Made by a program: the position numbers and the translations under genes. This document shows positions 8,245 to 50,956 of a stretch of DNA of 64,000 nt, piece by piece (position 1 is the stretch's first letter; every line of letters begins with the position of its first letter). The stretch is from the NCBI RefSeq assembly GCF_900143005.1, contig NZ_FRCS01000003.1:186001-250000 (forward strand). The letters are read 5' to 3'. Under the pieces are notes generated by a model that saw only the letters and a list, made by a program, of their open reading frames with translations, was not told the origin of the DNA and searched no databases. The stretch is from Cryptosporangium aurantiacum (GTDB lineage: Bacteria; Actinomycetota; Actinomycetes; Mycobacteriales; Cryptosporangiaceae).

Positions 8245-9480
8245 TCACACGCCGTTGGCCGCCGCGATCTCACCGAGTCGCCGCGCGCTGGGCTTCGGCG
8301 TCCGGACGAACGTCTCGCGGTCCACGGCGATCAGCCCGAAGGTCGGGCGGTATCCCAGGCTCCACTCGTAGTTGTCCAGCAGCGTCCAGTGCAGATAGCC
8401 GCGGACGTCGATGCCGTCGGCGACCGCCCGCTGCAGACCGGCGACCGCACCTTCGAGGTACTCCACCCGCTGGGCGTCGTCCGTGGTGGCGATGCCGTTC
8501 TCGGTGACCAGCAGCGGCGTGCCACCGGTCACGTCCCAGGCCTGCCGGAGTGCGATCTCCAGCGCGTCCGGGCGGATCGTCCAGCCGACCAGCGTCGTCG
8601 GCTCGCCGGGAGCGGGGCCCTCCGGGCCGTTCGGCCCCACCCGCTTGGTCGTGTAGGACTGGACGCCGAGGAAGTCGTCGTCCTTGCAGACGCCGAGGAA
8701 CTGGTTCTCCCAGAGGTCCCGGGCGCGGGCGCACTCGGCCTCGTACCCGGGCTCGGGCGTCAGCGCCTGCATGGCGAGCGACCAGCCGACCTTCGCCGAC
8801 GTCGTCTTCCGCACGATCTCGCGGGCACGCTCGTGGGCGGCGACGAGGATCGCGGCGACCTCGGGCTCGGGCGGCGGCAGCGCACCGGCGACGAGATGCT
8901 CGGACGAACCCGACGGGGTGAGTTGCGCCCGCGCGGCCGCCATCGCGGCGGCCGGATCCGGCGCGGCGAGGAACTGCCCCATCCGCAGGATCAGCGTCAG
9001 CATGTTGGGCTCGTTCATCGTGACGACGTGGCCGACACCGTCGAGAATCGGCGCCACCGTCTCGACGTAGCGCGCGAACTGGTCGACGGCGTCCGGCTGC
9101 CGCCACGCGCCGGCGCGGGTGAACCAGACCGGGTGGACGAAGTGGTGCAGCGTGACGACCGGCTGCACGCCCTGGGAGATCGCGTACTCGATCATTCGCC
9201 GGTAGTGGGCCAGCTCAGCGCGGGAGACCTGGCCACGTACCGGCTCGATCCGCGCCCACTCGATGCTGAACCGGTAGGCCGTGTAGCCGAGGTCGCGGCA
9301 CAGGTCGATGTCCTCGCGCCACCGGTGGTAGCTGTCGCACGCGTCTCCGCTCGGCTCCGCGACGAGCCCGAGTCCGGCGTGCTCCAGAGCCCAGAAGTCG
9401 CCGGCGACGTTGTTGCCCTCGATCTGGTGGGCGGCCGTGGACGCGCCCCAGAGGAAATCCGAGGGTAGGGACTGAGACAT
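8245..9480 (-). CDS. GH1 family beta-glycosidase
   Basis: Intracellular retaining beta-glycosidase, 411 residues, no signal peptide. Family 1 hallmarks: N-terminal FLWGASTAAHQIEG (about 9-22), acid/base glutamate in TMNEPN (Glu157) and nucleophile in LLVTENG (Glu327), with YLHWTLLDNYEW near the C-terminus lining the active site. At 411 residues it is shorter than the usual 440-480. The start at ATG 9480 has a GGAGG box about 8 bases upstream. It should cleave a beta-glucoside, -galactoside or -fucoside taken up by the cell. A promoter with the shared LacI-type operator lies at 9515-9563, inside the end of larC, so this gene can be induced independently of the lar operon. A second GH1 with the same layout lies at 45344-46579. 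Confidence 0.92.
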   Translation of the reverse strand: MSQSLPSDFLWGASTAAHQIEGNNVAGDFWALEHAGLGLVAEPSGDACDSYHRWREDIDLCRDLGYTAYRFSIEWARIEPVRGQVSRAELAHYRRMIEYAISQGVQPVVTLHHFVHPVWFTRAGAWRQPDAVDQFARYVETVAPILDGVGHVVTMNEPNMLTLILRMGQFLAAPDPAAAMAAARAQLTPSGSSEHLVAGALPPPEPEVAAILVAAHERAREIVRKTTSAKVGWSLAMQALTPEPGYEAECARARDLWENQFLGVCKDDDFLGVQSYTTKRVGPNGPEGPAPGEPTTLVGWTIRPDALEIALRQAWDVTGGTPLLVTENGIATTDDAQRVEYLEGAVAGLQRAVADGIDVRGYLHWTLLDNYEWSLGYRPTFGLIAVDRETFVRTPKPSARRLGEIAAANGV

Positions 9481-9514: not shown

Positions 9515-9563
9515 ATTAGCGGCGACCGGGCGGCGTTACGGCAATCGGTTGCCAGTGGTTGCC
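9515..9563 (-). promoter_or_regulatory. Promoter with shared LacI-type operator for the GH1 gene
   Basis: Read on the minus strand: half-site GGCAAC (9563-9558), then 4 bp, then the palindrome GGCAACCGATTGCC (9553-9540). The TTGCCG at 9544-9539 serves as -35, followed by an 18-bp spacer and GCTAAT (9520-9515) as -10. Transcription would start near 9508, leaving a leader of about 28 bases with a GGAGG box before ATG 9480. The operator lies within the last codons of larC. Same arrangement as at 21900-21947 and 33894-33942. Confidence 0.75.
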
Positions 9564-10762
9564 CGGAGTCCGCCGAGCACCGCGGCGTCGGCGCCGACCA
9601 CGAGGCCGGCCGCTGCCGCCGCCCGCACGGCCGCGGCCAGTACGTCGCGTTCCGGTCGTCGCTGCCGCCGCGCCAGCGCCGCGAGGTCCTCGAACTCGGG
9701 CATCACCTGGACGAGCACACCGTCGGCGTAGCCGACCTTGACCGCCACCGGCTCACCCCACACGTCCACGTCCACGAACGCACGGGCGAGCGCGGTCTTC
9801 CGCCGAGGCGACTCGCGGACGCCGAGCGTGCTGGTGTGCCGGAACATCGCCGCCCGCAACGGGTCAGCACGCACCGGGTCGCAGAGCACCGACAGCGTGT
9901 GCGCCGGGCGGCCCTTCTTCATCACGATCGGCACCAACCACGCATCCGACGCACCGGCCTCCAACAGCGCGGACAGCACACCCGGCCAGAGCCTCGGGTC
10001 CAGGTCGTCCACGTTGGCCTCCAGCAGGACCGCGCCCCCCGGTTCCGCCGCCTCGACCTGGCCCAGCAGGACACGGACGACATTCGCCCGGCCAGGCGTA
10101 TCCCGCGCCCCGGCACCCACCCCGACCGCGTCCACCCGCATCGACGGCACCTCCTCGCAGCGCTCCGCGAGCGAGCGAACCAGCGCCATTCCGGTCGGCG
10201 TCGCGAGTTCGCCCGCTCCCCCACCCCGCACGCGCCAGCGCCGCGCGAGCTGCGCGACGGCCGGAACCGGCACCGGCAGCTCGCCGTGCGCGGTGCGCGT
10301 GCGCCCCGATCCGACGGCGACCTCGCCGGCGGACACGGATTCGACGCCGAGGTCGTCCAGGGCCGCGCAGACGCCCACCACGTCGGTGATCGAGTCCAGT
10401 GCCCCGACCTCGTGGAAGTGGACGTCCTCGACCGGCGTGCCGTGCACGGCCGCCTCCGCCTCGGCCAGCAGCGCGAACGCCGCGACGGCACGGTCCCGGA
10501 CCCGCCCGTCCAACGGTGAGAGCAGCGTCCGGATTTGCGTCCAGGTCCGGTGCGGAGGTGCCGGTTCCCGGGGGTCGACGTGCGCTTTCAGCGCCCGCAG
10601 GCCTGCCCGGGTGACCGGCGCGACGTCGACGATGACCTCCCCGGGCACGACCGTGTCTACGGCATCGCGGACGACGTCCAGCCGGGCGCCGGCGTCGAGC
10701 AGGGCGCCGAGCAGCATGTCCCCCGCCACGCCTGCGGACGCGTCGATCCAGAGGTGGCTCAC
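9536..10762 (-). CDS. larC: LarC, nickel insertion enzyme of NPN cofactor synthesis
   Basis: LarC (pyridinium-3,5-bisthiocarboxylic acid mononucleotide nickel chelatase), 408 residues. It inserts nickel into the P2TMN precursor in a CTP-dependent reaction and gives the NPN cofactor used by LarA enzymes. The family N-terminus is plain: HLWIDASAGVAGDMLLGALLDAG, then a HFHEVGALDSI histidine motif near 85-95, and the C-terminal half with ETNVDD-like EANVDDLDPRLWP and VMKKGRPAHTL. In Lactobacillus plantarum larC is split and joined by ribosomal frameshifting; here it is one continuous frame. The GTG at 10762 overlaps the larB stop as GTGA, so it is translationally coupled in the order larE-larB-larC. 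The last codons contain the operator for the next gene. Confidence 0.93.
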   Translation of the reverse strand: MSHLWIDASAGVAGDMLLGALLDAGARLDVVRDAVDTVVPGEVIVDVAPVTRAGLRALKAHVDPREPAPPHRTWTQIRTLLSPLDGRVRDRAVAAFALLAEAEAAVHGTPVEDVHFHEVGALDSITDVVGVCAALDDLGVESVSAGEVAVGSGRTRTAHGELPVPVPAVAQLARRWRVRGGGAGELATPTGMALVRSLAERCEEVPSMRVDAVGVGAGARDTPGRANVVRVLLGQVEAAEPGGAVLLEANVDDLDPRLWPGVLSALLEAGASDAWLVPIVMKKGRPAHTLSVLCDPVRADPLRAAMFRHTSTLGVRESPRRKTALARAFVDVDVWGEPVAVKVGYADGVLVQVMPEFEDLAALARRQRRPERDVLAAAVRAAAAAGLVVGADAAVLGGLRATTGNRLP

Positions 10763-11430
10763 GCCGGAGCGGCGATCTGCGCAGCCAGGTGGCCCGCGCC
10801 GTAGCCGTTGTCGATGTTGACGACCGCCACCCCCGGTGCGCACGCGTTGAGCATCGTCAGCAGCGGCGCCAGACCGCCGAACGCCGCGCCATAACCGACC
10901 GACGTCGGCACCGCGACGACCGGTGCCGAGACCAGGCCCGCAACGACGCTCGGCAGTGCGCCGTCCATGCCGGCCACGACGACGATCGCCCGGGCCCGCC
11001 GGAGATCGGCCACTCGCGCCAGGATCCGGTGCAGCCCTGCCACCCCGACGTCCACGACCAGCTCGGTCGGCCGCCCGAGGTAGCGCGCGGTGAGTTCCGC
11101 TTCCCGGGCCACCCGCAGGTCGGAGGTACCGGCCGCGACCACGGTCACCAGGCCGCCGGTGGCTACCGGCGGCGTCGGTGGCCAGGCCAGTAGCGCGCCG
11201 TCGGCGTCGTGACGGGCGTCCGGCAAGGCGGCCAGCACAGCCTCCGCATGCGCGGCCGAGGCCCGCGTGAACAGCGTGACGATGTCCGGACGCCCGCGCA
11301 CGGCAGCCGCGATGGCACCCACCTGCGACGGCGTCTTGCCCTCGCAGTAAATCGCCTCGGGATAACCGCGCCGTGCAGTGCGCCCGAGGTCGAGCTCCGC
11401 GAACGCGGCGAGGTCGCCCACGTCAGTCAC
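10759..11430 (-). CDS. larB: LarB, nicotinate adenine dinucleotide carboxylase/hydrolase
   Basis: LarB, 223 residues, catalyses the first step of NPN cofactor synthesis: carboxylation of nicotinic acid adenine dinucleotide at C5 and cleavage to pyridinium-3,5-dicarboxylate mononucleotide. The family resembles the PurE fold. Visible motifs: GYPEAIYCEGKTPSQV near residues 20-35, TVVAAGTSDLRVAREAE in the middle, VVVAGMDGALPSVVAGL and the glycine-rich VPTSVGYGAAFGG, ending NIDNGYGAGHLA, all typical of LarB. The preferred GTG start at 11430 lies 8 bases inside the end of larE, and the gene ends in a GTGA overlap with larC. The three genes therefore form one tightly coupled unit dedicated to the cofactor. 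Confidence 0.93.
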   Translation of the reverse strand: MTDVGDLAAFAELDLGRTARRGYPEAIYCEGKTPSQVGAIAAAVRGRPDIVTLFTRASAAHAEAVLAALPDARHDADGALLAWPPTPPVATGGLVTVVAAGTSDLRVAREAELTARYLGRPTELVVDVGVAGLHRILARVADLRRARAIVVVAGMDGALPSVVAGLVSAPVVAVPTSVGYGAAFGGLAPLLTMLNACAPGVAVVNIDNGYGAGHLAAQIAAPA

Positions 11431-12259
11431 AGCCCACCTGCACAAGCGGCAGCGTGAACGCTCCGGACTGCACGCCGGCGAGGTCGACGGCAGCAAACCG
11501 AAAGCCGGCGGCGACGATCGCCGCGTGGACCGTCCCCCGCAGGGGCTCGGAAACCGCCCGGATCAGGTCGTCGGGCGACAACTCGATGCGGGCGACGTCC
11601 CCGTGGTGCCGCACCCGCAGGTCACCGAAGCCCAGCCGGCGCAGCGCGGCCTCGGCGCACTCGACCTGGCGGAGCTTCTCGGGGATCACCTCGGCGAAGT
11701 GCGGGATGCGGGAGGCCAGGCAGGGTGCGGCCGGCTTGTCCGCGCACGGCAGCCGCAGCTCACGCGCGATCGCGCGGACCGCCGCTTTGTCCAGGCCTGC
11801 GGCGACCAGTGGCCGGAGTACCCGGTGGGCGGTGGCGGCCCTGCTCCCCGGCCGGTCCGGGCGGCGTGCGTCGTCGGCGTTCTCCCCGTACGCGATCGCG
11901 TCGAGCCGGTGCGCAACGTCGACCTCGTCGCCGATCCGGCTGAACAGTTCGTCCTTGCAGTGGAAACACCGATCCGGGCCGTTGGCGCGGTAGGCGGCCC
12001 GCTCGCCCTCGTGCGTCGCCACCTCGACGACCGGTACGCCGAGAAAGCGTGCCACCTCGTGCGCGCCGGTCCGCTCGTCGTCGGCCAGACTCGGTGAGAC
12101 GCCGAGAATCGCTAGCACCCGGTCGCGGCCGAGCGCACGGGCGGCGAGAGCGGTCAGCACGGAGGAGTCGACGCCGCCGGAGAACGCGACCCCGAGCCGG
12201 TCGACCCCGGTGAGCAGACTTCCGATGCGCGCCGTCGCGGCAGTCAGGAGCTCCGTCAT
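11423..12259 (-). CDS. larE: LarE, sacrificial sulfur transferase of NPN cofactor synthesis
   Basis: LarE, 278 residues, an ATP-pyrophosphatase that adenylates the pyridinium dicarboxylate and transfers sulfur to it. The PP-loop is SGGVDS at 27-32; a CFHCK motif is at 98-102; and a conserved cysteine sits in APCLASR (Cys180), matching the sacrificial Cys176 of the L. plantarum enzyme. This suggests the cysteine-sacrificing form, where the protein loses its sulfur as dehydroalanine, rather than the iron-sulfur-cluster form. ATG 12259 has a GGGG patch upstream; an alternative ATG lies at 12268. A promoter-like ATGAAT centred 9 bases upstream, spaced from a TTGCCA within the shared operator, would make the transcript nearly leaderless. 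First gene of the larE-larB-larC operon. Confidence 0.93.
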   Translation of the reverse strand: MTELLTAATARIGSLLTGVDRLGVAFSGGVDSSVLTALAARALGRDRVLAILGVSPSLADDERTGAHEVARFLGVPVVEVATHEGERAAYRANGPDRCFHCKDELFSRIGDEVDVAHRLDAIAYGENADDARRPDRPGSRAATAHRVLRPLVAAGLDKAAVRAIARELRLPCADKPAAPCLASRIPHFAEVIPEKLRQVECAEAALRRLGFGDLRVRHHGDVARIELSPDDLIRAVSEPLRGTVHAAIVAAGFRFAAVDLAGVQSGAFTLPLVQVGCD

Positions 12260-12264
12260 GTGCC

Positions 12265-12314
12265 CCATTCATCGCCGCTACGGGCCGTTTGGCAAGCGGT
12301 TGCCACATGTTCCG
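12265..12314 (-). promoter_or_regulatory. Perfect LacI-type operator between larE and the LacI gene
   Basis: TGGCAAGCGGTTGCCA at 12290-12305 is a perfect 6-bp inverted repeat with a 4-bp centre. A weaker half-site GTTCCG lies exactly 10 bp further (12309-12314). On the minus strand TTGCCA (12295-12290) can act as a -35 with a 17-bp spacer to ATGAAT (12270-12265). The site is also in the leader of the rightward LacI gene (start 12382), which would allow autoregulation. Confidence 0.65.
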
Positions 12315-12381
12315 CCGCTGGTTATCGTCGAGCGGCCCCGTTCGGACGCTGCTGCCCGACGGCGTCGCACGAGGAGGCATC

Positions 12382-13467
12382 ATGACCGCACCGGAGCGGG
12401 CTCCCACGATCTACGACGTGGCGAAGGCCGCCGGGGTCGCGGCGTCGACCGTCTCCCGCGCGTTCGCCCGCCCGGGGCGCGTCAACTCGGAGACCGCACG
12501 CCGGATCCGGGAGGCAGCGGCCGAACTCGGCTACCGGGCCAACCCGATCGCCCGCGCGCTGCCGACCGGGAAGACGTCGATGATCGCGCTGGTCATCTCC
12601 GACGTCACGAACCCGTTTCACAACGAGATCATCCGCGGCGCCCAGGCGGCGGCCGCGGAGGCCGGCTACACGATGCTGCTCTCCGACGCGCAGGAGTCCG
12701 GTGCCCGGGAGCGCGAGACGCTCGAGCGAGCGATCTCCGCCGTCGACGGGATCGTGCTCGCGACTTCCCGGATGTCCGACTCGTCGATCCGGACGATCGC
12801 GAAGCAGCGCCCGGTCGTCCTGCTCAACCGGGCGCTGGCCGACGTGCCCTGCGTCGTCACCGACAACCCGCGCGGCATGCACCACGCCGCAGCTCACCTC
12901 GCCGAGCTGGGCCATCAGCGGGTCACGTACCTGGCCGGACCGGAGGCGTCCTGGGCCGACGGCATGCGGTGGCGATCACTGCGCGAGGGCGCCGCCGAGC
13001 TGGGCCTGCACGCCCGGCGCATCGGCCCGTTCGCACCGACCGTCGCGGGCGGAAGCGCAGCGGCCGCCGAGTTCGTCCGTCATCCCACCAGCGCCGTCAT
13101 CGCCTACAACGACCTGATGGCGATCGGACTCATCCGGGCGCTGACCGCGCGAGGAGCCCGCATCCCTCGCGATCTCAGCGTCATCGGCTTCGACAACATC
13201 TTCGCCGCCGACCTGGTGACTCCGCCGCTGACCACGGTCGCCGCGCCGCTGCACGCGATGGGCCTCACCGCGGTTCGGAACCTGCTCGCGATCGTCCGAG
13301 GCGCGCAGCCTCGCGCGCAGGAGCCGGTGAGCCTGCCCGCTCGCCTGGTCCTCCGGGCGTCGACCGCTCAGCGTAGCCGGAACAGGACCTCGCCGGCCTG
13401 GGGCACCACGAGGGTGTCCGGGTCGGCGGCGAAGGCGTCCACGTCGAGGGTGGCCGGGTCCAGGTAG
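12382..13467 (+). CDS. LacI-family transcriptional regulator, candidate master regulator of the regulon
   Basis: LacI/GalR repressor of about 361 residues. N-terminal helix-turn-helix TIYDVAKAAGVAASTVSRAF with hinge LGYRANPIARAL, then a periplasmic-binding-like sensor domain (IALVISDVTNPF, SVIGFDNI, LTTVAAPLHAMG) that would bind a sugar or sugar acid. ATG 12382 follows a strong GAGGAGG box by 4-5 bases. The normal family end, LVLRAST, occurs near residue 330, but no stop follows; the frame continues about 25 more residues and overlaps the end of larA on the other strand by 100 bp. It sits between larE and larA, next to a perfect copy of the shared operator, so it is the best candidate for the regulator of all seven sites. 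That assignment is inference. Confidence 0.9.
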   Translation: MTAPERAPTIYDVAKAAGVAASTVSRAFARPGRVNSETARRIREAAAELGYRANPIARALPTGKTSMIALVISDVTNPFHNEIIRGAQAAAAEAGYTMLLSDAQESGARERETLERAISAVDGIVLATSRMSDSSIRTIAKQRPVVLLNRALADVPCVVTDNPRGMHHAAAHLAELGHQRVTYLAGPEASWADGMRWRSLREGAAELGLHARRIGPFAPTVAGGSAAAAEFVRHPTSAVIAYNDLMAIGLIRALTARGARIPRDLSVIGFDNIFAADLVTPPLTTVAAPLHAMGLTAVRNLLAIVRGAQPRAQEPVSLPARLVLRASTAQRSRNRTSPAWGTTRVSGSAAKASTSRVAGSR

Positions 13468-14609
13468 TCGAGGTTCGCCGCTCGGACGACGTCTTCCGGG
13501 ATGCCGGTGGCGAGCGTGACCGTCACCCGGTTCCGCTCGCCGTGCTCCGGGTCCCAGGTGCCGGCTCCGCGCAGATGCGTCGAGTGGGCGAGCACGCCCC
13601 AGTGTTCGTGCGTGAACCGGTCCCACTGCTTTACGAAGTAGTCGCGGCAGTGGTAACCGATCCGTTCGATCTCCGGGTGCATCGCCGAGATCTGCGTGAT
13701 GTGCGGCGCGTAGACGACGACCTGTCCCCCGTCCGCGACGATCGGCTCGACCTTGTAGAAGCCCTTGGCGCCGGTCCACATGTCGTCGTACTTGGTCGGC
13801 AGGACCGACAGCACCCGCCGGACGGGTGCGTCCAGGTACTTCACGTGGGCCTGCGCGGAGACCTCGGCCGCCGCGGCCCAGGCCGTCTCGGGCGGCCCGA
13901 ACGACGCCGCGTGCAGCGCGCCGCTCCCGGACTCCACGACGAGACAGAGCGCCAGGCGGCGGCCGGGAATCATCGCGGCCGCCTCGTCGATCAACGCTCG
14001 CACCGGCGTGATTCCGCGCGTGCCGATGATCTCGGCGCTGGTGATCAGCGCGCCCAGCCAGTGCGAGAAGTCGATGATCTCGTGCCCGGCCACGCCGGGG
14101 AAGAAGTACTTGTTGCCGCCGGAGAACCCGACCACCTCGTGCGGAAACACCGGGCCGACGACCAGACAGACGTCGTGTTCGACGACGGCCCGGTTGACGA
14201 CGACGTCGACCGGCTCCCGCAGGCGGCCCTCGGAGAGTGCAGCGACGCGGTCGGCGCCGATCCGGCCCAGGGGCACCAGCCGCGCCGGATCCCACCATTC
14301 GTGATTGCGCACGGTGTAGGACCCACCCAGGTGCGCCGCTAGCTGCTCGTCGGTCATCGGCGCGTGGGTGCCGAGCGCGATCAGCACGGTCACGTTCGTC
14401 GCCCGCCCGTCGAGCGCTTCGTGCACGGCGGAGAGCAGCAGCGGCAACGGGCAGCTGCGGGTGGCGTCCGGTACGACGACGCAGACGCTGCGGCCGTCCA
14501 GGTCCGTCTCAGCGAGGCGGGCGTGCACGAACCGGCGGATCGTGTCGGGATCGAGCGTGCGGTCCGCGCCGCCGATGACGCCGCCGACCACGTCCTGGGA
14601 GAGGGCCAT
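13368..14609 (-). CDS. larA: LarA-superfamily nickel-pincer racemase/epimerase (proposed mannonate/gluconate 2-epimerase)
   Basis: LarA-type enzyme, 413 residues, using the nickel-pincer nucleotide. All residues known to matter in L. plantarum LarA have counterparts: DATR (Asp48, Arg51), His82 in GTHAPMT, the acid/base His157 in PHEVVGFSGG, Lys167 in GGNK that carries the cofactor, and the nickel ligand His183, 16 residues later as in the model enzyme. It is therefore catalytically complete, but the substrate is not necessarily lactate. The superfamily includes malate, phenyllactate and hydroxyglutarate racemases and D-gluconate 2-epimerases. Here the gene is divergent from glucuronate isomerase across 100 bases holding a shared operator. 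I infer D-mannonate to D-gluconate epimerisation. Start uncertain: ATG 14609, 14621 or 14639. The 3-prime end overlaps the LacI gene. Confidence 0.88.
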   Translation of the reverse strand: MALSQDVVGGVIGGADRTLDPDTIRRFVHARLAETDLDGRSVCVVVPDATRSCPLPLLLSAVHEALDGRATNVTVLIALGTHAPMTDEQLAAHLGGSYTVRNHEWWDPARLVPLGRIGADRVAALSEGRLREPVDVVVNRAVVEHDVCLVVGPVFPHEVVGFSGGNKYFFPGVAGHEIIDFSHWLGALITSAEIIGTRGITPVRALIDEAAAMIPGRRLALCLVVESGSGALHAASFGPPETAWAAAAEVSAQAHVKYLDAPVRRVLSVLPTKYDDMWTGAKGFYKVEPIVADGGQVVVYAPHITQISAMHPEIERIGYHCRDYFVKQWDRFTHEHWGVLAHSTHLRGAGTWDPEHGERNRVTVTLATGIPEDVVRAANLDYLDPATLDVDAFAADPDTLVVPQAGEVLFRLR

Positions 14610-14654
14610 GAAAGGCACCATGCGCGCCGCACCGCGCATTCGGCAAGGTCGGCA

Positions 14655-14703
14655 AGCAACGACTGGCAACCGCTTGTCGGCCCGCCCGGCACCGGTTGAC
14701 GCT
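14655..14703 (+). promoter_or_regulatory. Shared LacI-type operator and promoter between larA and uxaC
   Basis: On the plus strand: half-site AGCAAC (14655-14660), 4 bp, then GGCAACCGCTTGTC (14665-14678). TTGTCG (14674-14679) as -35 is followed by 18 bp and GACGCT (14698-14703), a weak -10. Transcription would begin about at the uxaC ATG (14711), giving a leaderless message. The leftward larA promoter must lie in the same 100 bases, so one site can control both genes. Confidence 0.65.
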
Positions 14704-21899: not shown

Positions 21900-21947
21900 A
21901 TTAGCCCGGTCGGGGCGGGTCGAGACAATCGGTTGCCATTCGTTGCC
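21900..21947 (-). promoter_or_regulatory. Promoter with shared LacI-type operator for uidA-GH78
   Basis: Minus strand: GGCAAC (21947-21942), 4 bp, then GGCAACCGATTGTC (21937-21924). TTGTCT (21928-21923) as -35, 17-bp spacer, GCTAAT (21905-21900) as -10. Predicted transcript start near 21893, leaving about 30 bases with GAGGAGG before GTG 21862. This geometry decides the uidA start, because the upstream ATG at 21901 lies inside the -10. Confidence 0.75.
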
Positions 21948-33893: not shown

Positions 33894-33942
33894 ATTAACG
33901 CGAGGCGAATCGGAGGCGAGCAATCAGTTGCCACCGGTTGCC
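33894..33942 (-). promoter_or_regulatory. Promoter with shared LacI-type operator for the MFS gene
   Basis: Minus strand: GGCAAC (33942-33937), 4 bp, then GGCAACTGATTGCTC (33932-33918). TTGCTC (33923-33918) as -35, 18-bp spacer, GTTAAT (33899-33894) as -10. A further GGCAAC lies at 33948-33943. The site overlaps the end of the upstream ABC ATPase gene (stop at 33924), as the GH1 site overlaps larC. Confidence 0.75.
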
Positions 33943-34766
33943 GTTGCCGCAGCGCGCTGCCGTTCTGCGCGCCGCGCCGCCTGCTGTTCCGGGTCGGCGA
34001 CCGGCGCCGCGAGCAGTAGTCGCTGCGTGTAGGGGTGCTCCGGACGTGCGGTGACCGTGTCGGCGTCGCCGGTCTCCACCAGGTCGCCGCGGTAGACCAC
34101 CGCGACCCGGTGGCTGACGTGCCGCACGACCGCCAGATCGTGAGAGACGAACAGGTAGGCGACCCCGGTGCGGCGCTGGACGTCGATGAGCAGGTCCAAC
34201 ACCCGCGCCTGGGTCGAGAGGTCCAGGGCGGAGACCGGCTCGTCGCAGACGATCAGCGTCGGCTCCGGTGCGAGCGCCCGCGCGATCGCGACCCGCTGCC
34301 GCTGGCCGCCGCTGAATTCCCGCGGTAGCCGCTCGGAGGCGTTGGCGGGTAGCCCTACCTGGTCGAGCAGCGTGGCGACCCGCGCCCGCGCCTGTCTCGC
34401 CTCCATGCCCTGCGCGATCAGCGGCTCGCTCAGGATGTCCCCGATCAGCATCGACGGGTTGAGCGAGGTGTACGGGTCCTGGAACACCACTTGGAGATGC
34501 CGGGCGAGGCGCCGCCGCTGCGGCGCGGACGCACGCGTGATGTCCTCGCCATCGAAGGTGATGCGCCCCCCGCTCGGGCGCACGAGCCCGAGTACGGCCC
34601 GGCCGATCGTCGTCTTACCCGACCCCGACTCGCCGACCACCCCCAGGCACTCGCCCGGGGCGATCGTCAGCGAGACACCGTGGAGCACCTCGCGCGGCCG
34701 GGCGCGGAAGCCCCGTCCGGGGTACGTCACGCGCAGGGCGTCGATCTCCAGCAGCGGCGCGCTCAT
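33924..34766 (-). CDS. Oligopeptide/glycoside ABC importer ATPase (OppF/DppF type)
   Basis: ABC ATPase of 280 residues: Walker A GESGSGKTT (about 44-52), Q-loop VFQDPYTSLNPSM, signature FSGGQRQRV, Walker B LIVCDEPVSALD and the H-loop FVSHDL. The C-terminal HPYTQRLLLAA segment is diagnostic for the Opp/Dpp group. ATG 34766 overlaps the preceding gene stop (ATGA). It is the last gene of binding protein - DppB - DppC/DppD fusion - DppF. The operon promoter region carries the shared operator at 39220-39243, so despite its peptide-like family the importer probably carries an oligosaccharide or glycoside. Confidence 0.93.
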   Translation of the reverse strand: MSAPLLEIDALRVTYPGRGFRARPREVLHGVSLTIAPGECLGVVGESGSGKTTIGRAVLGLVRPSGGRITFDGEDITRASAPQRRRLARHLQVVFQDPYTSLNPSMLIGDILSEPLIAQGMEARQARARVATLLDQVGLPANASERLPREFSGGQRQRVAIARALAPEPTLIVCDEPVSALDLSTQARVLDLLIDVQRRTGVAYLFVSHDLAVVRHVSHRVAVVYRGDLVETGDADTVTARPEHPYTQRLLLAAPVADPEQQAARRAERQRAAATATGGN

Positions 34767-36535
34767 TCGGGGTCCGTTCCGACGACGACGGCGGGAGTAT
34801 CCGTCCGCACGGTGTCCTGGTCGAGGATCGCGCCGAGCAGTTGCCGGGTGTACGGGTGCTGCGGCGCGCGGAATGTGTCCACGGTCGTCCCCGATTCGAC
34901 GATCGCTCCGTTCCGCATGACGGCGAGGCGTCCGCAGGCGTCGGCGACGACGCCGAAGTTGTGCGTGACGAGCAGGACCGCCATCCCCAACTCCTGCTGG
35001 AGGTCCCGGAGCAGGTCGAGGATCTCCGCCTGCACGGTGACGTCGAGGGCGGTGGTCGGTTCGTCGGCGATCAGGAGTTGCGGCCTGCTCGCCACGGCGC
35101 CGGCGATCAGGACCCGCTGCGCCATGCCGCCGGAGATCTGGTGCGGGTAGGAGGCGAAGGTGTGTTTCGGGTCCGGGATCCCGACCCGGCCCAGCAGCGC
35201 GAGCGCGCGGTCCCGCGCCTCTCGGCGGGATACCCCCGACGCAGCGCGGATGCCCTCGACGAGCTGGGCCCCGACGGTGAACGACGGGTCGAGGTTCGAC
35301 ATGGGCTCCTGCGGGACATACGCGATCGATCGGCCGCGCAGCCGGCGGAGTTCCCGCTCGCTCAGCCTGAGCAACTCGCGTCCCGCGAACCGGATCGAGC
35401 CACGCAGCACGACCGCTTCGGCCGGCAGCAGACCGAGTACCGCGAAGGCGGTCTGGGACTTGCCGGATCCGGACTCGCCGACGAGGCCGAGCGTCTCGCC
35501 CGCGTCCAGCCGCAGCGAAACGCCGGTCAGTACTTCGGTCAGTTCGCCGGACGGTGTCGGGTACGCGAGCGTCAGGTCGTCGACGACCAGCAGCGAGTCG
35601 TCTTCGGCTGCCGTTGTCGCGACCGCGGGACGGCGTTCGGGCACGGTGAGCTTCGCCGGCGTGAGCTTGACGCCTTCCAGGGTGTCGCGCAGGGCGTTGC
35701 CCAGCAGGACCAGCGATGCGGTCATCAACCCCAGCAGAAGGCTGGGCCAGAGGAACTGCAACGGCTCCGTGTAGAGATTGGTGAACCCCTCGGAGATCAT
35801 CGCGCCGAAGCTGGGGACGGTCGTCGAGCCGACACCCAAGAACGCGAGCCCCGATTGGAGGGCGATCGACGTACCGGCCATGAACGCGGCGGCGATGACG
35901 ATCGGACCTCGGACGACGACCAGCACGTGCCGGCCGAGGATGCGCAGGTTGGAGAGACCGGAGACGCGGGCGGCGTCGACGTACAACTCGTTCTTCACGC
36001 CGACGACCAGGTTGCGGACCAAGCGGTAGATGCCTGGCGAGAGCAGGACACCGAAGATCAGCATCGTGGCCCGGAAGTCGCCGTGGGTCACCGGCAGCAG
36101 AACGATGAGCAGCAACAGACCGGGGAAGGTCATCAGAAGGCTGAAGATCCACTCGGTGAGACCACCGATCCGGCGGCCGAAGTAGCCGCCGATCAGCCCG
36201 AAGGTCACCCCGATGGTGAGGGCCACGCTGGCGCCGATCAACGCCGACACCACGCTCGTGTTGATCGAGTGCAGGAGCCGGGACAGGATGTCGCGTCCGC
36301 TCTGGTCACCACCGAGCGGATAGCCCGGCGTGCCGGGCCCGGCGTTGATCGCATCCAGCGAGGCTTCGTTCGGGCCGTGTTCGGCAAGTACTGACGCCAG
36401 CGCGCCCAGCACGACGACGACCAGCAGCAACGAGGCCGTGATCACTGCCTGGGGGTCCTTCACCAGCTTGCGGAGTACGGAAGTGCGGGCCGGCACGGTG
36501 AGCCCTGGGTCCTCCGCCAGAATCTCGACGCTCAC
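34763..36535 (-). CDS. Fused ABC importer permease (DppC) and ATPase (DppD)
   Basis: A single 590-residue protein joining two normally separate subunits. Residues about 1-285 are a DppC-type permease: first helix near 25-45, LGGDQSGRDILSRLLHS periplasmic part, then five helices with the EAA-like loop YVDAARVSGLSNLRILGRHVLP-like sequence. Residues about 310-590 are a DppD-type ATPase with Walker A GESGSGKSQ, QEPMSNLDPSF, ISGGMAQRV, LLIADEPTTALDV and THNF, ending in the HPYTRQLLGA tail. The joint is a short Pro/Ala linker. Such fusions are known in some actinobacterial peptide-type importers. GTG 36535 overlaps the DppB stop. Confidence 0.92.
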   Translation of the reverse strand: MSVEILAEDPGLTVPARTSVLRKLVKDPQAVITASLLLVVVVLGALASVLAEHGPNEASLDAINAGPGTPGYPLGGDQSGRDILSRLLHSINTSVVSALIGASVALTIGVTFGLIGGYFGRRIGGLTEWIFSLLMTFPGLLLLIVLLPVTHGDFRATMLIFGVLLSPGIYRLVRNLVVGVKNELYVDAARVSGLSNLRILGRHVLVVVRGPIVIAAAFMAGTSIALQSGLAFLGVGSTTVPSFGAMISEGFTNLYTEPLQFLWPSLLLGLMTASLVLLGNALRDTLEGVKLTPAKLTVPERRPAVATTAAEDDSLLVVDDLTLAYPTPSGELTEVLTGVSLRLDAGETLGLVGESGSGKSQTAFAVLGLLPAEAVVLRGSIRFAGRELLRLSERELRRLRGRSIAYVPQEPMSNLDPSFTVGAQLVEGIRAASGVSRREARDRALALLGRVGIPDPKHTFASYPHQISGGMAQRVLIAGAVASRPQLLIADEPTTALDVTVQAEILDLLRDLQQELGMAVLLVTHNFGVVADACGRLAVMRNGAIVESGTTVDTFRAPQHPYTRQLLGAILDQDTVRTDTPAVVVGTDPE

Positions 36536-39194: not shown

Positions 39195-39243
39195 AGGCAA
39201 GCAGCAGCGTGGAGACCTTGGCGATCGGTTGCCGCGAGTTGCC
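39195..39243 (-). promoter_or_regulatory. Shared LacI-type operator upstream of the dipeptide-type importer
   Basis: Minus strand: GGCAAC (39243-39238), 4 bp, GGCAACCGATCGCC (39233-39220). Both half-sites are exact and 10 bp in phase; the inverted arm is CGCC instead of TGCC. A -10 at the expected 18-bp distance (TTGCCT at 39200-39195) is poor, and CCTACA 3 bases further is an alternative. The regulated start is GTG 39096. Confidence 0.6.
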
Positions 39244-49710: not shown

Positions 49711-49769
49711 CGTCTCTCCTTGGGTCTTCACTGACCCCGCGCATGGATTGGGGGGCTCCGCAAACAGCG

Positions 49770-49783
49770 CGCAAGCGTTTGCG
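49770..49783. promoter_or_regulatory. Second LacI-type palindrome, CGCAAGCGTTTGCG
   Basis: CGCAAGCGTTTGCG has matching CGCAA / TTGCG arms and the central CG typical of LacI-family operators. It is different in sequence from the shared GGCAA element. It sits just downstream of the predicted transcript start (about 49787) of the sugar importer operon, a good repression position, and 150 bases from the second LacI gene. Confidence 0.6.
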
Positions 49784-49793
49784 TGGCCGGGAA

Positions 49794-49841
49794 CGTAACA
49801 ACCGCGAGCCAGAGCACCCGCAGTGGTTGCCACTAGTTGCC
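49794..49841 (-). promoter_or_regulatory. Promoter with shared LacI-type operator for the CUT1 importer operon
   Basis: Minus strand: GGCAAC (49841-49836), 4 bp, GGCAACC (49831-49825). The inverted arm is degraded (ACTGCG). With CTGCGG (49823-49818) as -35 and an 18-bp spacer, the -10 is GTTACG (49799-49794), the same geometry as at 9515, 21900 and 33894. The divergent LacI gene starts at 49934, and a further GGTTGCG lies at 49898-49904. Confidence 0.65.
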
Positions 49842-49933
49842 GCCTGCCGACTCCGACCATTCGAACGCCCGGATTCCTGTGGCAAGCTGCGCGTAATCGG
49901 TTGCGTCCGGCGACCGCGAGACGGGAGCTGACG

Positions 49934-50956
49934 ATGACCTCGGGCGAGCCGGCCACCATGGAAGACCTCGCCCGGATGGCCGGGGTTTCGGTGGCGACGG
50001 TCTCCCGCGCGCTCAGCGGAAAGCCCGGGGTATCCGCCTCGACTCGGTCGGCCATCGCGCGGCTCGCGCGGGAACACCGCTTCACCAGCAACCAGTCCGC
50101 CCGCGCCCTGTCGACCGGTCAGACCGGCCGGGTCACGGTGACGCTGCCGCGCATCGAAGCCGAGTACTTCGCCCGCATCCTGGCCGGCGCAGCACAGGTC
50201 ATTCACGATGCCGGTTTGAGCCTGGTCTTGGAGACGACACAACACGAACGCGACCGGCAGAGTGACGCCATACAGGGGTTCGTCACCTCGGGCGTCGACG
50301 GCGCGCTCATTCTGCTCCCGGCCGAGTCGAACCAGGAGATCTCCGCCCTCTACGACAGCGGCTTCAAATTCGTCATCATCGACCCCATCGACCAGGTGAC
50401 AGCACCCATGCCCTGGGTCACCTCGACGCACGCGATGGGCGCGCGCCACGCCGTCGAACATCTCCTGGGCCTAGGGCACCGCCGCATCGCGATGATCACC
50501 GGCGAGCCGCACTTCTTCAGCACCAAGGAGCGCCTGCACGGCGCACGCGAGGCACTGGAACGCGCCGGAGTGGGTCTCGACCCCGACCTCGTGCGGGTGA
50601 GCGGTTACACCGAATCAGCCGCGGCCTACGACGTCGCCGTGGACCTGTTGCGCCATCCGGACCCACCCACCGCGATCTTCGCGTTCAACGACCGACTCGC
50701 GTTCACCACGCTTCAGGCGGCGCACGCCCTGAAAATCCCAGTTCCCGACGCGCTGTCGATCGTCGGTTTCGACGACATGGAAGCCGCCAAGCTGATCTCG
50801 CCGGGGCTCACTACCGTTCGTCAGCCGCTCGCCGCGATGGGGTCGACCGCGGCGACGATGCTCATCCAACTCCTCAACGGGCAGACTCCCCTCGGCATGC
50901 ACATCCAACTGGCGACCGAGCTGGTCGTGCGCCGATCAACTGGCACGCCTGGCTGA
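49934..50956 (+). CDS. LacI-family transcriptional regulator (second)
   Basis: LacI/GalR regulator of 340 residues. Helix-turn-helix TMEDLARMAGVSVATVSRALSG and hinge FTSNQSARALSTGQTGRV, then the sugar-binding domain with ILAGAAQVIHDAGLSLVL, GHRRIAMITGEP, AIFAFNDRLAFTTL, SIVGFDDME and LTTVRQPLAAMG. Full length, with normal end ELVVRRSTG. ATG 49934 follows GGGAGC. It is divergent from the CUT1 importer operon and is its likely local repressor, possibly through CGCAAGCGTTTGCG. Its recognition helix (VSVATVSRAL) differs slightly from the first LacI (VAASTVSRAF), so the two may read different operators. Confidence 0.92.
   Translation: MTSGEPATMEDLARMAGVSVATVSRALSGKPGVSASTRSAIARLAREHRFTSNQSARALSTGQTGRVTVTLPRIEAEYFARILAGAAQVIHDAGLSLVLETTQHERDRQSDAIQGFVTSGVDGALILLPAESNQEISALYDSGFKFVIIDPIDQVTAPMPWVTSTHAMGARHAVEHLLGLGHRRIAMITGEPHFFSTKERLHGAREALERAGVGLDPDLVRVSGYTESAAAYDVAVDLLRHPDPPTAIFAFNDRLAFTTLQAAHALKIPVPDALSIVGFDDMEAAKLISPGLTTVRQPLAAMGSTAATMLIQLLNGQTPLGMHIQLATELVVRRSTGTPG

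Follow-up and report, generated by a model that had tools for sequence, protein, structure and literature searches.

In a gene cluster of the actinobacterium Cryptosporangium aurantiacum, predicted LacI-type operators carry, next to the palindrome, a third half-site one helical turn further upstream, which raises the question of what reads this extra half-site. We addressed it in a window of 64,000 nucleotides (the whole stretch of DNA analysed), for which an earlier note had described seven such sites and proposed tetramer binding, a second protein or cooperative control. The cluster extends from about 8 to 51 kb and contains plant glycoside and uronate genes, namely two GH1 genes, LarC, AIRC/LarB-like, LarE-like, LarA-like, LacI-1 and UxaC, together with a UxuB-like gene (mannitol dehydrogenase family), two alpha-L-rhamnosidases, GH2, GH43 and ABC and MFS transporters. 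The gene names derive from Pfam matches, and the Lar and Uxu labels are interpretations. The 9.58-Mb genome has 32 LacI domain matches, 31 of them above the cut-off. The likely regulator of the cluster, LacI-1 (12382..13467, plus strand), combines a LacI HTH with Peripla_BP_3 and belongs to the LacI family by its Pfam scores (PF00356, 50.4 bits, cut-off 27; PF13377, 119.9 bits, cut-off 26.5); its nearest solved chains by sequence are those of CcpA. A second LacI-family gene, LacI-2, lies at 49934..50956 (plus strand); the comparative test was anchored on LacI-1 instead.

In promoter orientation, the predicted operator spans 24 bp and consists of half-site A (GGCAA), 5 bp, half-site B (GGCAA), 4 bp and half-site C (TTGCC), with A and B starting 10 bp apart and B and C forming the palindrome GGCAA-N4-TTGCC. 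The copy at 9540..9563 (minus strand; A 9559-9563, B 9549-9553, C 9540-9544; mismatches 0/0/0 in A/B/C) stands ahead of a GH1 gene (ATG at 9480), with a -10-like GCTAAT at 9515-9520 after a spacer of 18 bp. Three further minus-strand operators, each with mismatches 0/0/1, precede the GH2 gene (21924..21947; A 21943-21947, B 21933-21937, C 21924-21928; -10-like GCTAAT at 21900-21905, spacer 17), the MFS transporter gene (33919..33942; A 33938-33942, B 33928-33932, C 33919-33923; -10-like GTTAAT at 33894-33899, spacer 18) and the SBP_bac_5 ABC transporter gene (39220..39243; A 39239-39243, B 39229-39233, C 39220-39224). The operator at 12291..12314 (minus strand; mismatches 2/0/0), flanked by lacI-1 on one side and the LarE-like gene on the other, has exact B and C half-sites, CGGAA as its A (12310-12314) and a -10-like ATGAAT at 12267-12272 (spacer 17) that the earlier note did not list. 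The operator ahead of uxaC lies at 14655..14678 (plus strand; A 14655-14659, C 14674-14678; mismatches 1/0/1); like that at 39220, it lacks a -10-like AAT in the register seen elsewhere. The seventh site, at 49818..49841 (minus strand; A 49837-49841, B 49827-49831; mismatches 0/0/4), ahead of the SBP_bac_8 ABC transporter gene, is a direct repeat without a palindrome, since TGCGG occupies the place of C (4/5 mismatches), and the nearby GTTACG at 49794-49799 has no C half there.

Hence, the seven sites claimed at the outset do exist, with B exact at all seven, but A is exact at five only, with one mismatch at 14655 and two at 12291 (6/7 within one mismatch). Likewise, a palindrome had been described at every site; B-C is within one mismatch at six, as is C itself, and is missing from 49818. 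The assignment of the palindrome to the -35, with a -10 at 17-18 bp, stands for the -10s at 9515, 21900 and 33894 and falls for 49794, where there is no palindrome. The central CG is present at 5/7 sites, the centre being TG at 33919 and CA at 49818. The operator at 9540-9563 lies inside the 3' end of the preceding same-strand ORF (9536-10843) and that at 33919-33942 overlaps the 3' end of another (33924-36152), so that both look like internal promoters within an apparent single unit. The interval from the SBP_bac_8 gene to LacI-2 contains two further LacI-like palindromes, at 49769-49784 and 49893-49904 (GCGCAAGCGTTTGCGT; GTAATCGGTTGC), so that both LacI proteins may act on the SBP_bac_8 promoter.

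We compared these sites with chance. When up to 3 mismatches were allowed, the 24-bp pattern matched the window 9 times, at 6 places, where 0.22 matches were expected. The exact direct repeat GGCAACN4GGCAAC has six copies in the whole 9.58-Mb genome, five of which fall in the window (0.01 expected). That the layout is a product of chance or of the way of reading could be argued from the count with 3 mismatches, which is at chance level genome-wide and below that of the reversed control (33 in all vs 55), but the places with 0-2 mismatches in the whole genome, six in number, all fall within this cluster, and the statistics from related loci given below contradict such an origin. We rejected it on the window, genome and 80-locus counts and regard it as next to impossible. 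Upstream regions of 30 LacI loci of the same genome, drawn from the 32 matches with LacI-1 and LacI-2 included, were also scanned for CG-centred palindromes with an added direct repeat (at least 4/5); a spacing of 10 was seen once, not above other spacings, in a scan that was insensitive, as LacI-1's own upstream region (A with 2 mismatches) also went unflagged. The single case (locus L231, G000:C1:932337-932360; GGGAAACTTCGGAAACCGATTGCC) is three-half-like and lies 134 bp upstream of the HTH of a further LacI gene; it may represent another such system.

To follow the half-sites beyond this genome, species genomes were scanned with LacI-1, giving 364 relatives, and the best 80 of these 364 were used (970 kb of loci), including Cellulomonas, Cellulosimicrobium, Promicromonospora, Arthrobacter, Georgenia, Frankia, Nocardia and Actinoplanes relatives, among others; a search of 396 genomes in the phylum gave 3 additional loci at 1e-85. 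When perfect palindromes were taken blind to A, 63/74 had a direct half-site (at most 1/5 mismatch) at exactly 10 bp on one side, vs 0-8/74 at each of the other spacings from 5 to 25, and a second scan with wider margins gave 62/73. With up to one mismatch in the palindrome, A was found at 10 bp in 159/196 cases (14.5 palindromes expected by chance). Conversely, direct repeats taken blind to C numbered 127 perfect copies, vs 1.2 expected; C followed at +19 in 89 of them and was missing from 38. For exact half-site pairs, the spacing maxima fell at 10 for direct repeats, at 9 for inverted ones and at 19 for A to C; direct repeats had a smaller second maximum at 9. Hence, as judged by these comparisons, the third half-site layout is real, conserved and directional. 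This bears out the earlier opinion that a third half-site, phased by one turn and upstream of a promoter with its operator over the -35, is unusual for a LacI dimer. What the note overlooked is that the direct repeat is, on these counts, at least as conserved as the palindrome (127 perfect copies vs 73). The 11/73 perfect palindromes without A were also informative in their position, 10 of them lying 36-87 bp upstream of a lacI ortholog. Few A-bearing sites have yet another direct half-site (7/190); three loci (L117, L118 and L125) have arrays of three direct half-sites at 10 bp plus an inverted one. The tally of 85 B-C sites also counts palindromes viewed from the strand with A on the other side.

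The layout also goes with the regulator. In 61 genomes, the 24-bp pattern (0-1 mismatch) was present in 10/17 with a LacI-1 homolog (1e-60) vs 2/44 without. In a tree of 168 LacI rows, 115 had a three-half site in their locus (B exact, A and C together with at most 2 mismatches; locus lengths vary between sets, from 2 to 13 kb): 90/102 in the LacI-1 branch and 12/12 and 10/15 in two more distant branches, while a GGCAA-type three-half site was found in 0/26 and 0/8 rows of two others. Thus the comparison shows A kept at a fixed spacing and promoter side, co-occurring with the LacI-1 subfamily. Three distant paralogues (L195, L205 and L209) have TGCAA palindromes with GACAA at the place of A; they were excluded from the A counts, and this GACAA is possibly part of a TTGACA -35.

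We then looked at the anatomy of the sites. After removal of duplicate sequences (174 to 162) from sites with at most 2 mismatches over the 15 half-site bases, the 162 unique sites gave the consensus GGCAAC-WNRT-GGCAAC-YSN-TTGCC, in which B is near-invariant and A is about as conserved as C, both having been selected on equal terms. The linker between A and B is itself biased in sequence, towards W at 6, R at 8 and T at 9. The second-last base of C varies (C 0.51, T 0.28, A 0.16), which gives TTGAC and TTGTC forms closer to a -35. With C taken as the -35 hexamer and one site beside N bases excluded (175 to 174), 104/174 sites showed a -10-like element (...AATG) at a distance of 17 or 18 bp from C in an unconstrained motif search; on the A side, the best -10-like match was scattered, with at most 14/174 at any one position. 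As the -10-like motif keeps a fixed distance from C and is scattered on the side of A, A is promoter-distal and C overlaps the predicted -35. In the window, the -10s at 9515, 21900, 33894 and 12267 fit this register, and the sites at 14655 and 39220 do not. When TANNNT was used as the -10, 16/150 sites matched on the C side and 24/150 in mirror image from B; the mirrored matches may be divergent lacI promoters.

These features could mean that A is simply an extra landing place that raises the local concentration of the regulator and offsets a C weakened by its role in the -35, with no special binding mode. The lower conservation of C than of B and its -35-like TTGAC/TTGTC forms agree with this, as does the frequent lack of A at the regulator genes' own promoters (10/11 palindrome-only sites). 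Yet neither a strict 10-bp spacing nor a fixed side would be needed for a landing place, and direct-repeat-only sites in lineages with a disrupted hinge (below) speak against it as well, so that we consider this explanation improbable.

In LacI-family proteins, a Leu of the hinge contacts the central CG of the operator. The hinge of LacI-1 is intact (NPIARALPTGKT), with the Leu of the ARxL motif present (ARAL), and this Leu is found in 65/80 orthologs. The central CG was present in 86/179 three-half sites of the 80 loci overall, all of them in loci with the hinge Leu (86/154 vs 0/25 without it), and a second locus set gave 23/32 with the Leu vs 2/25 without; loci lacking qualifying sites were left out of the CG counts and of the tree. 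The hinge is disrupted in 17/80 loci if two Knoellia loci with a one-residue gap in the hinge are included. Among perfect direct repeats with a -10-like AT, C was kept in 6/17 with a disrupted hinge vs 38/40 with an intact one, so that 13/57 of these sites lack C, 11 of them hinge-disrupted and two intact. Without the -10 filter, 13/31 vs 76/96 perfect direct repeats kept C, and exact pairs were direct or inverted in a ratio of 31:7 in hinge-disrupted loci and 96:67 in intact ones. The presence of A at perfect palindromes showed no clear difference (5/7 disrupted vs 57/66 intact). Two groups depart from a simple correspondence: a hinge-less branch (L173-L190) retains C, with CG in two of its loci, and in the Cellulosimicrobium/Promicromonospora branch CG is mostly missing though most members have the Leu. 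In an independent-pairs test on the tree, 2.4 informative pairs agreed, 0.0 opposed and 3.6 showed no difference, numbers at which significance is unreachable. In summary, the link of hinge disruption to the loss of C and of the central CG is a strong lead drawn from few independent events, and the comparison shows A persisting where C and CG fade in some hinge-disrupted lineages.

This relation also bears on the proposal that A is bound by a different protein reading the same half-site, for instance LacI-2 or a co-activator. The cluster does hold a second LacI gene, A is in a position from which an upstream activator could reach RNA polymerase, and the bases between A and B are biased towards W at 6 and T at 9. 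However, A and B are both GGCAAC, the layout is constant over 80 loci chosen solely by LacI-1 orthologs, among which no other queried window gene exceeds 46/80, and site composition varies with the state of the hinge in these orthologs. The second protein raised earlier is thus disfavoured by the identity of A and B, the co-occurrence with the LacI-1 subfamily and the shift with its hinge, and we regard it as very unlikely. Conversely, A is, with high probability, a true half-site of the regulator that reads B-C.

How would one regulator use three half-sites? The palindrome-only sites (11/73) indicate that B-C alone seems able to serve, and the direct-repeat-only sites with a -10-like AT (13/57, of which 11 are hinge-disrupted) indicate the same for A-B. 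The simplest common account, to our mind, may be a dimer that stays on B through one DNA-binding domain and places the other on either C or A. The operator would consist of the A-B direct repeat at 10 bp and an inverted C, 9 bp from B, over the -35. B-C would be read as a palindrome in the classical way, with the hinge on the central CG, and A-B in a head-to-tail mode for which an ordered hinge would be unnecessary. With the second DNA-binding domain on C, the -35 would be covered and transcription repressed; with that domain on A, the -35 would be free, A thereby raising occupancy and perhaps aiding a switch. We hold this two-register mechanism tentatively, at somewhat less than even odds.

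Several of the same observations would also fit two LacI-1 dimers lying side by side, one on B-C and a second with one domain on A, held by a cooperative dimer-dimer contact. At 10 bp, A faces the same side of the helix as B, and the palindrome-only sites show that one dimer is satisfied by B-C; paired LacI sites at 22 and 32 bp, read as cooperative, are moreover described in the available part of a regulon survey (Ravcheev et al., PMC4052901). The other domain of the second dimer would, however, be left without a half-site (a further direct half-site in 7/190), direct-repeat-only sites with a -10-like AT (13/57) are not predicted, and conservation is higher at B than at C, a difference for which the part played by C in the -35 may account. 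We find this arrangement rather unlikely. The LacI-type tetramer proposed earlier found no support in a crude test of the C-termini for a leucine heptad helix: among the orthologs (median length 337.5 aa, about a quarter with a tail of some 20-30 residues), as few as 2/80 had even three hydrophobics spaced 7.

The reading that we prefer is therefore that of a single LacI-family regulator of hexuronate or glucuronide use, LacI-1 with its actinobacterial orthologs, acting at predicted operators of three half-sites with a head-to-tail mode on A-B; we give it a probability of about 0.5. Besides the few independent events behind the hinge link and the branches that depart from it, the intact hinge of LacI-1 in the window weighs against the proposal, as does the strict spacing, since CytR is reported to tolerate relaxed spacing. 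The lower conservation of C than of B may also merely come from its doubling as the -35. More speculatively, and with less confidence than the two-register mechanism itself, this LacI lineage could be intermediate between palindromic and head-to-tail reading: its three half-sites would keep both modes, some hinge-disrupted lineages (an Arthrobacter group and Knoellia) would have moved towards direct repeats, and a hinge-intact dimer may shift from B-C to A-B with ligand, uncovering the -35 while staying on the promoter.

The function assigned to the regulon follows from the neighbourhoods. Among the 80 loci, the queried window genes recurred as UxuB-like in 46, GH2 in 29, LarE in 23, UxaC in 23, LarB in 22, LarA in 18 and LarC in 16, and from this recurrence of UxuB-like, GH2, Lar and UxaC genes we read the LacI-1 regulon as one for hexuronate or glucuronide use. 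In the window, the nickel-pincer genes (LarC, LarB-like, LarE-like and LarA-like; 9536-14610) share operators with UxaC and the UxuB-like gene, and Lar genes recur next to LacI-1 orthologs (LarE 23/80, LarA 18/80). By extrapolation from LarA chemistry, a LarA-type epimerase that converts mannonate to gluconate would provide a hexuronate route without mannonate dehydratase.

With a 10-bp direct repeat no less conserved than the palindrome across a widespread subfamily, some of the sites of this subfamily would have been misread. Loci with an intact hinge, a relaxed centre and a disrupted hinge would line up as a natural series on which to study how direct-repeat reading arises in a symmetric repressor, and the 24-bp layout would give a precise pattern for predicting actinobacterial glucuronide regulons. 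Among other members of the family, CytR reportedly has a flexible interdomain linker, named as such in a title by Jorgensen from 1998.

Compared with known systems, most of the sites share with canonical LacI operators an even palindrome, and many a CG centre; a place near sugar-gene promoters and probable autoregulation are further common traits, as far as these are set out in the part of the LacI regulon survey available (Ravcheev et al. 2014, PMC4052901). That survey searched palindromes of 14-24 bp and described all motifs as palindromes; its available part reports pairs of sites with spacings of 13, 22 and 32 bp, and describes no third half-site at 10 bp. The canonical rule of two half-sites is broken here by 62/73 perfect palindromes. 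In Escherichia coli, the LacI-family CytR uses inverted or direct repeats with relaxed spacing and works with CRP, according to the accessible portion of Sernova and Gelfand 2012 (PMC3454398). CytR is thus a reported case of direct repeats in the LacI family, and the CytR half-sites given there, TGCAAC/GTTGCA, are close to GGCAAC, but CytR spacing is relaxed, whereas here it is fixed at 10 and 9 bp and three half-sites are combined; that the LacI-1 subfamily may accept direct repeats is suggested by sequence conservation (127 perfect direct repeats in the 80 loci, 38 without C). Two direct boxes and one inverted box are the commonest layout of MocR regulators (32% of regulons; PMC5320631, in part). 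However, these have a GntR-type HTH with an aminotransferase-like domain and direct repeats two or three turns apart, and the Pfam matches of LacI-1 are to LacI HTH and Peripla_BP only, which places it outside the MocR regulators by domain content.

In the LacI literature searched, a body from which most subscription papers fall out, we found no operator with a third half-site. ArdK/KorA, a symmetric-dimer repressor family, offer a parallel in the reading of direct repeats: ArdK does so with one HTH rotated by 180 degrees and also binds an inverted repeat, but these are unrelated plasmid repressors, and the portion of the report at hand describes no three-half-site operator (PMC9723621). The cre-var sites of CcpA are likewise a non-canonical operator architecture in a LacI-family member, but they are inverted repeats with a variable spacer, for which the consulted sections describe no added direct half-site (PMC5263246). 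By this comparison of sequences, the three-half-site layout is a new variant among LacI operators.
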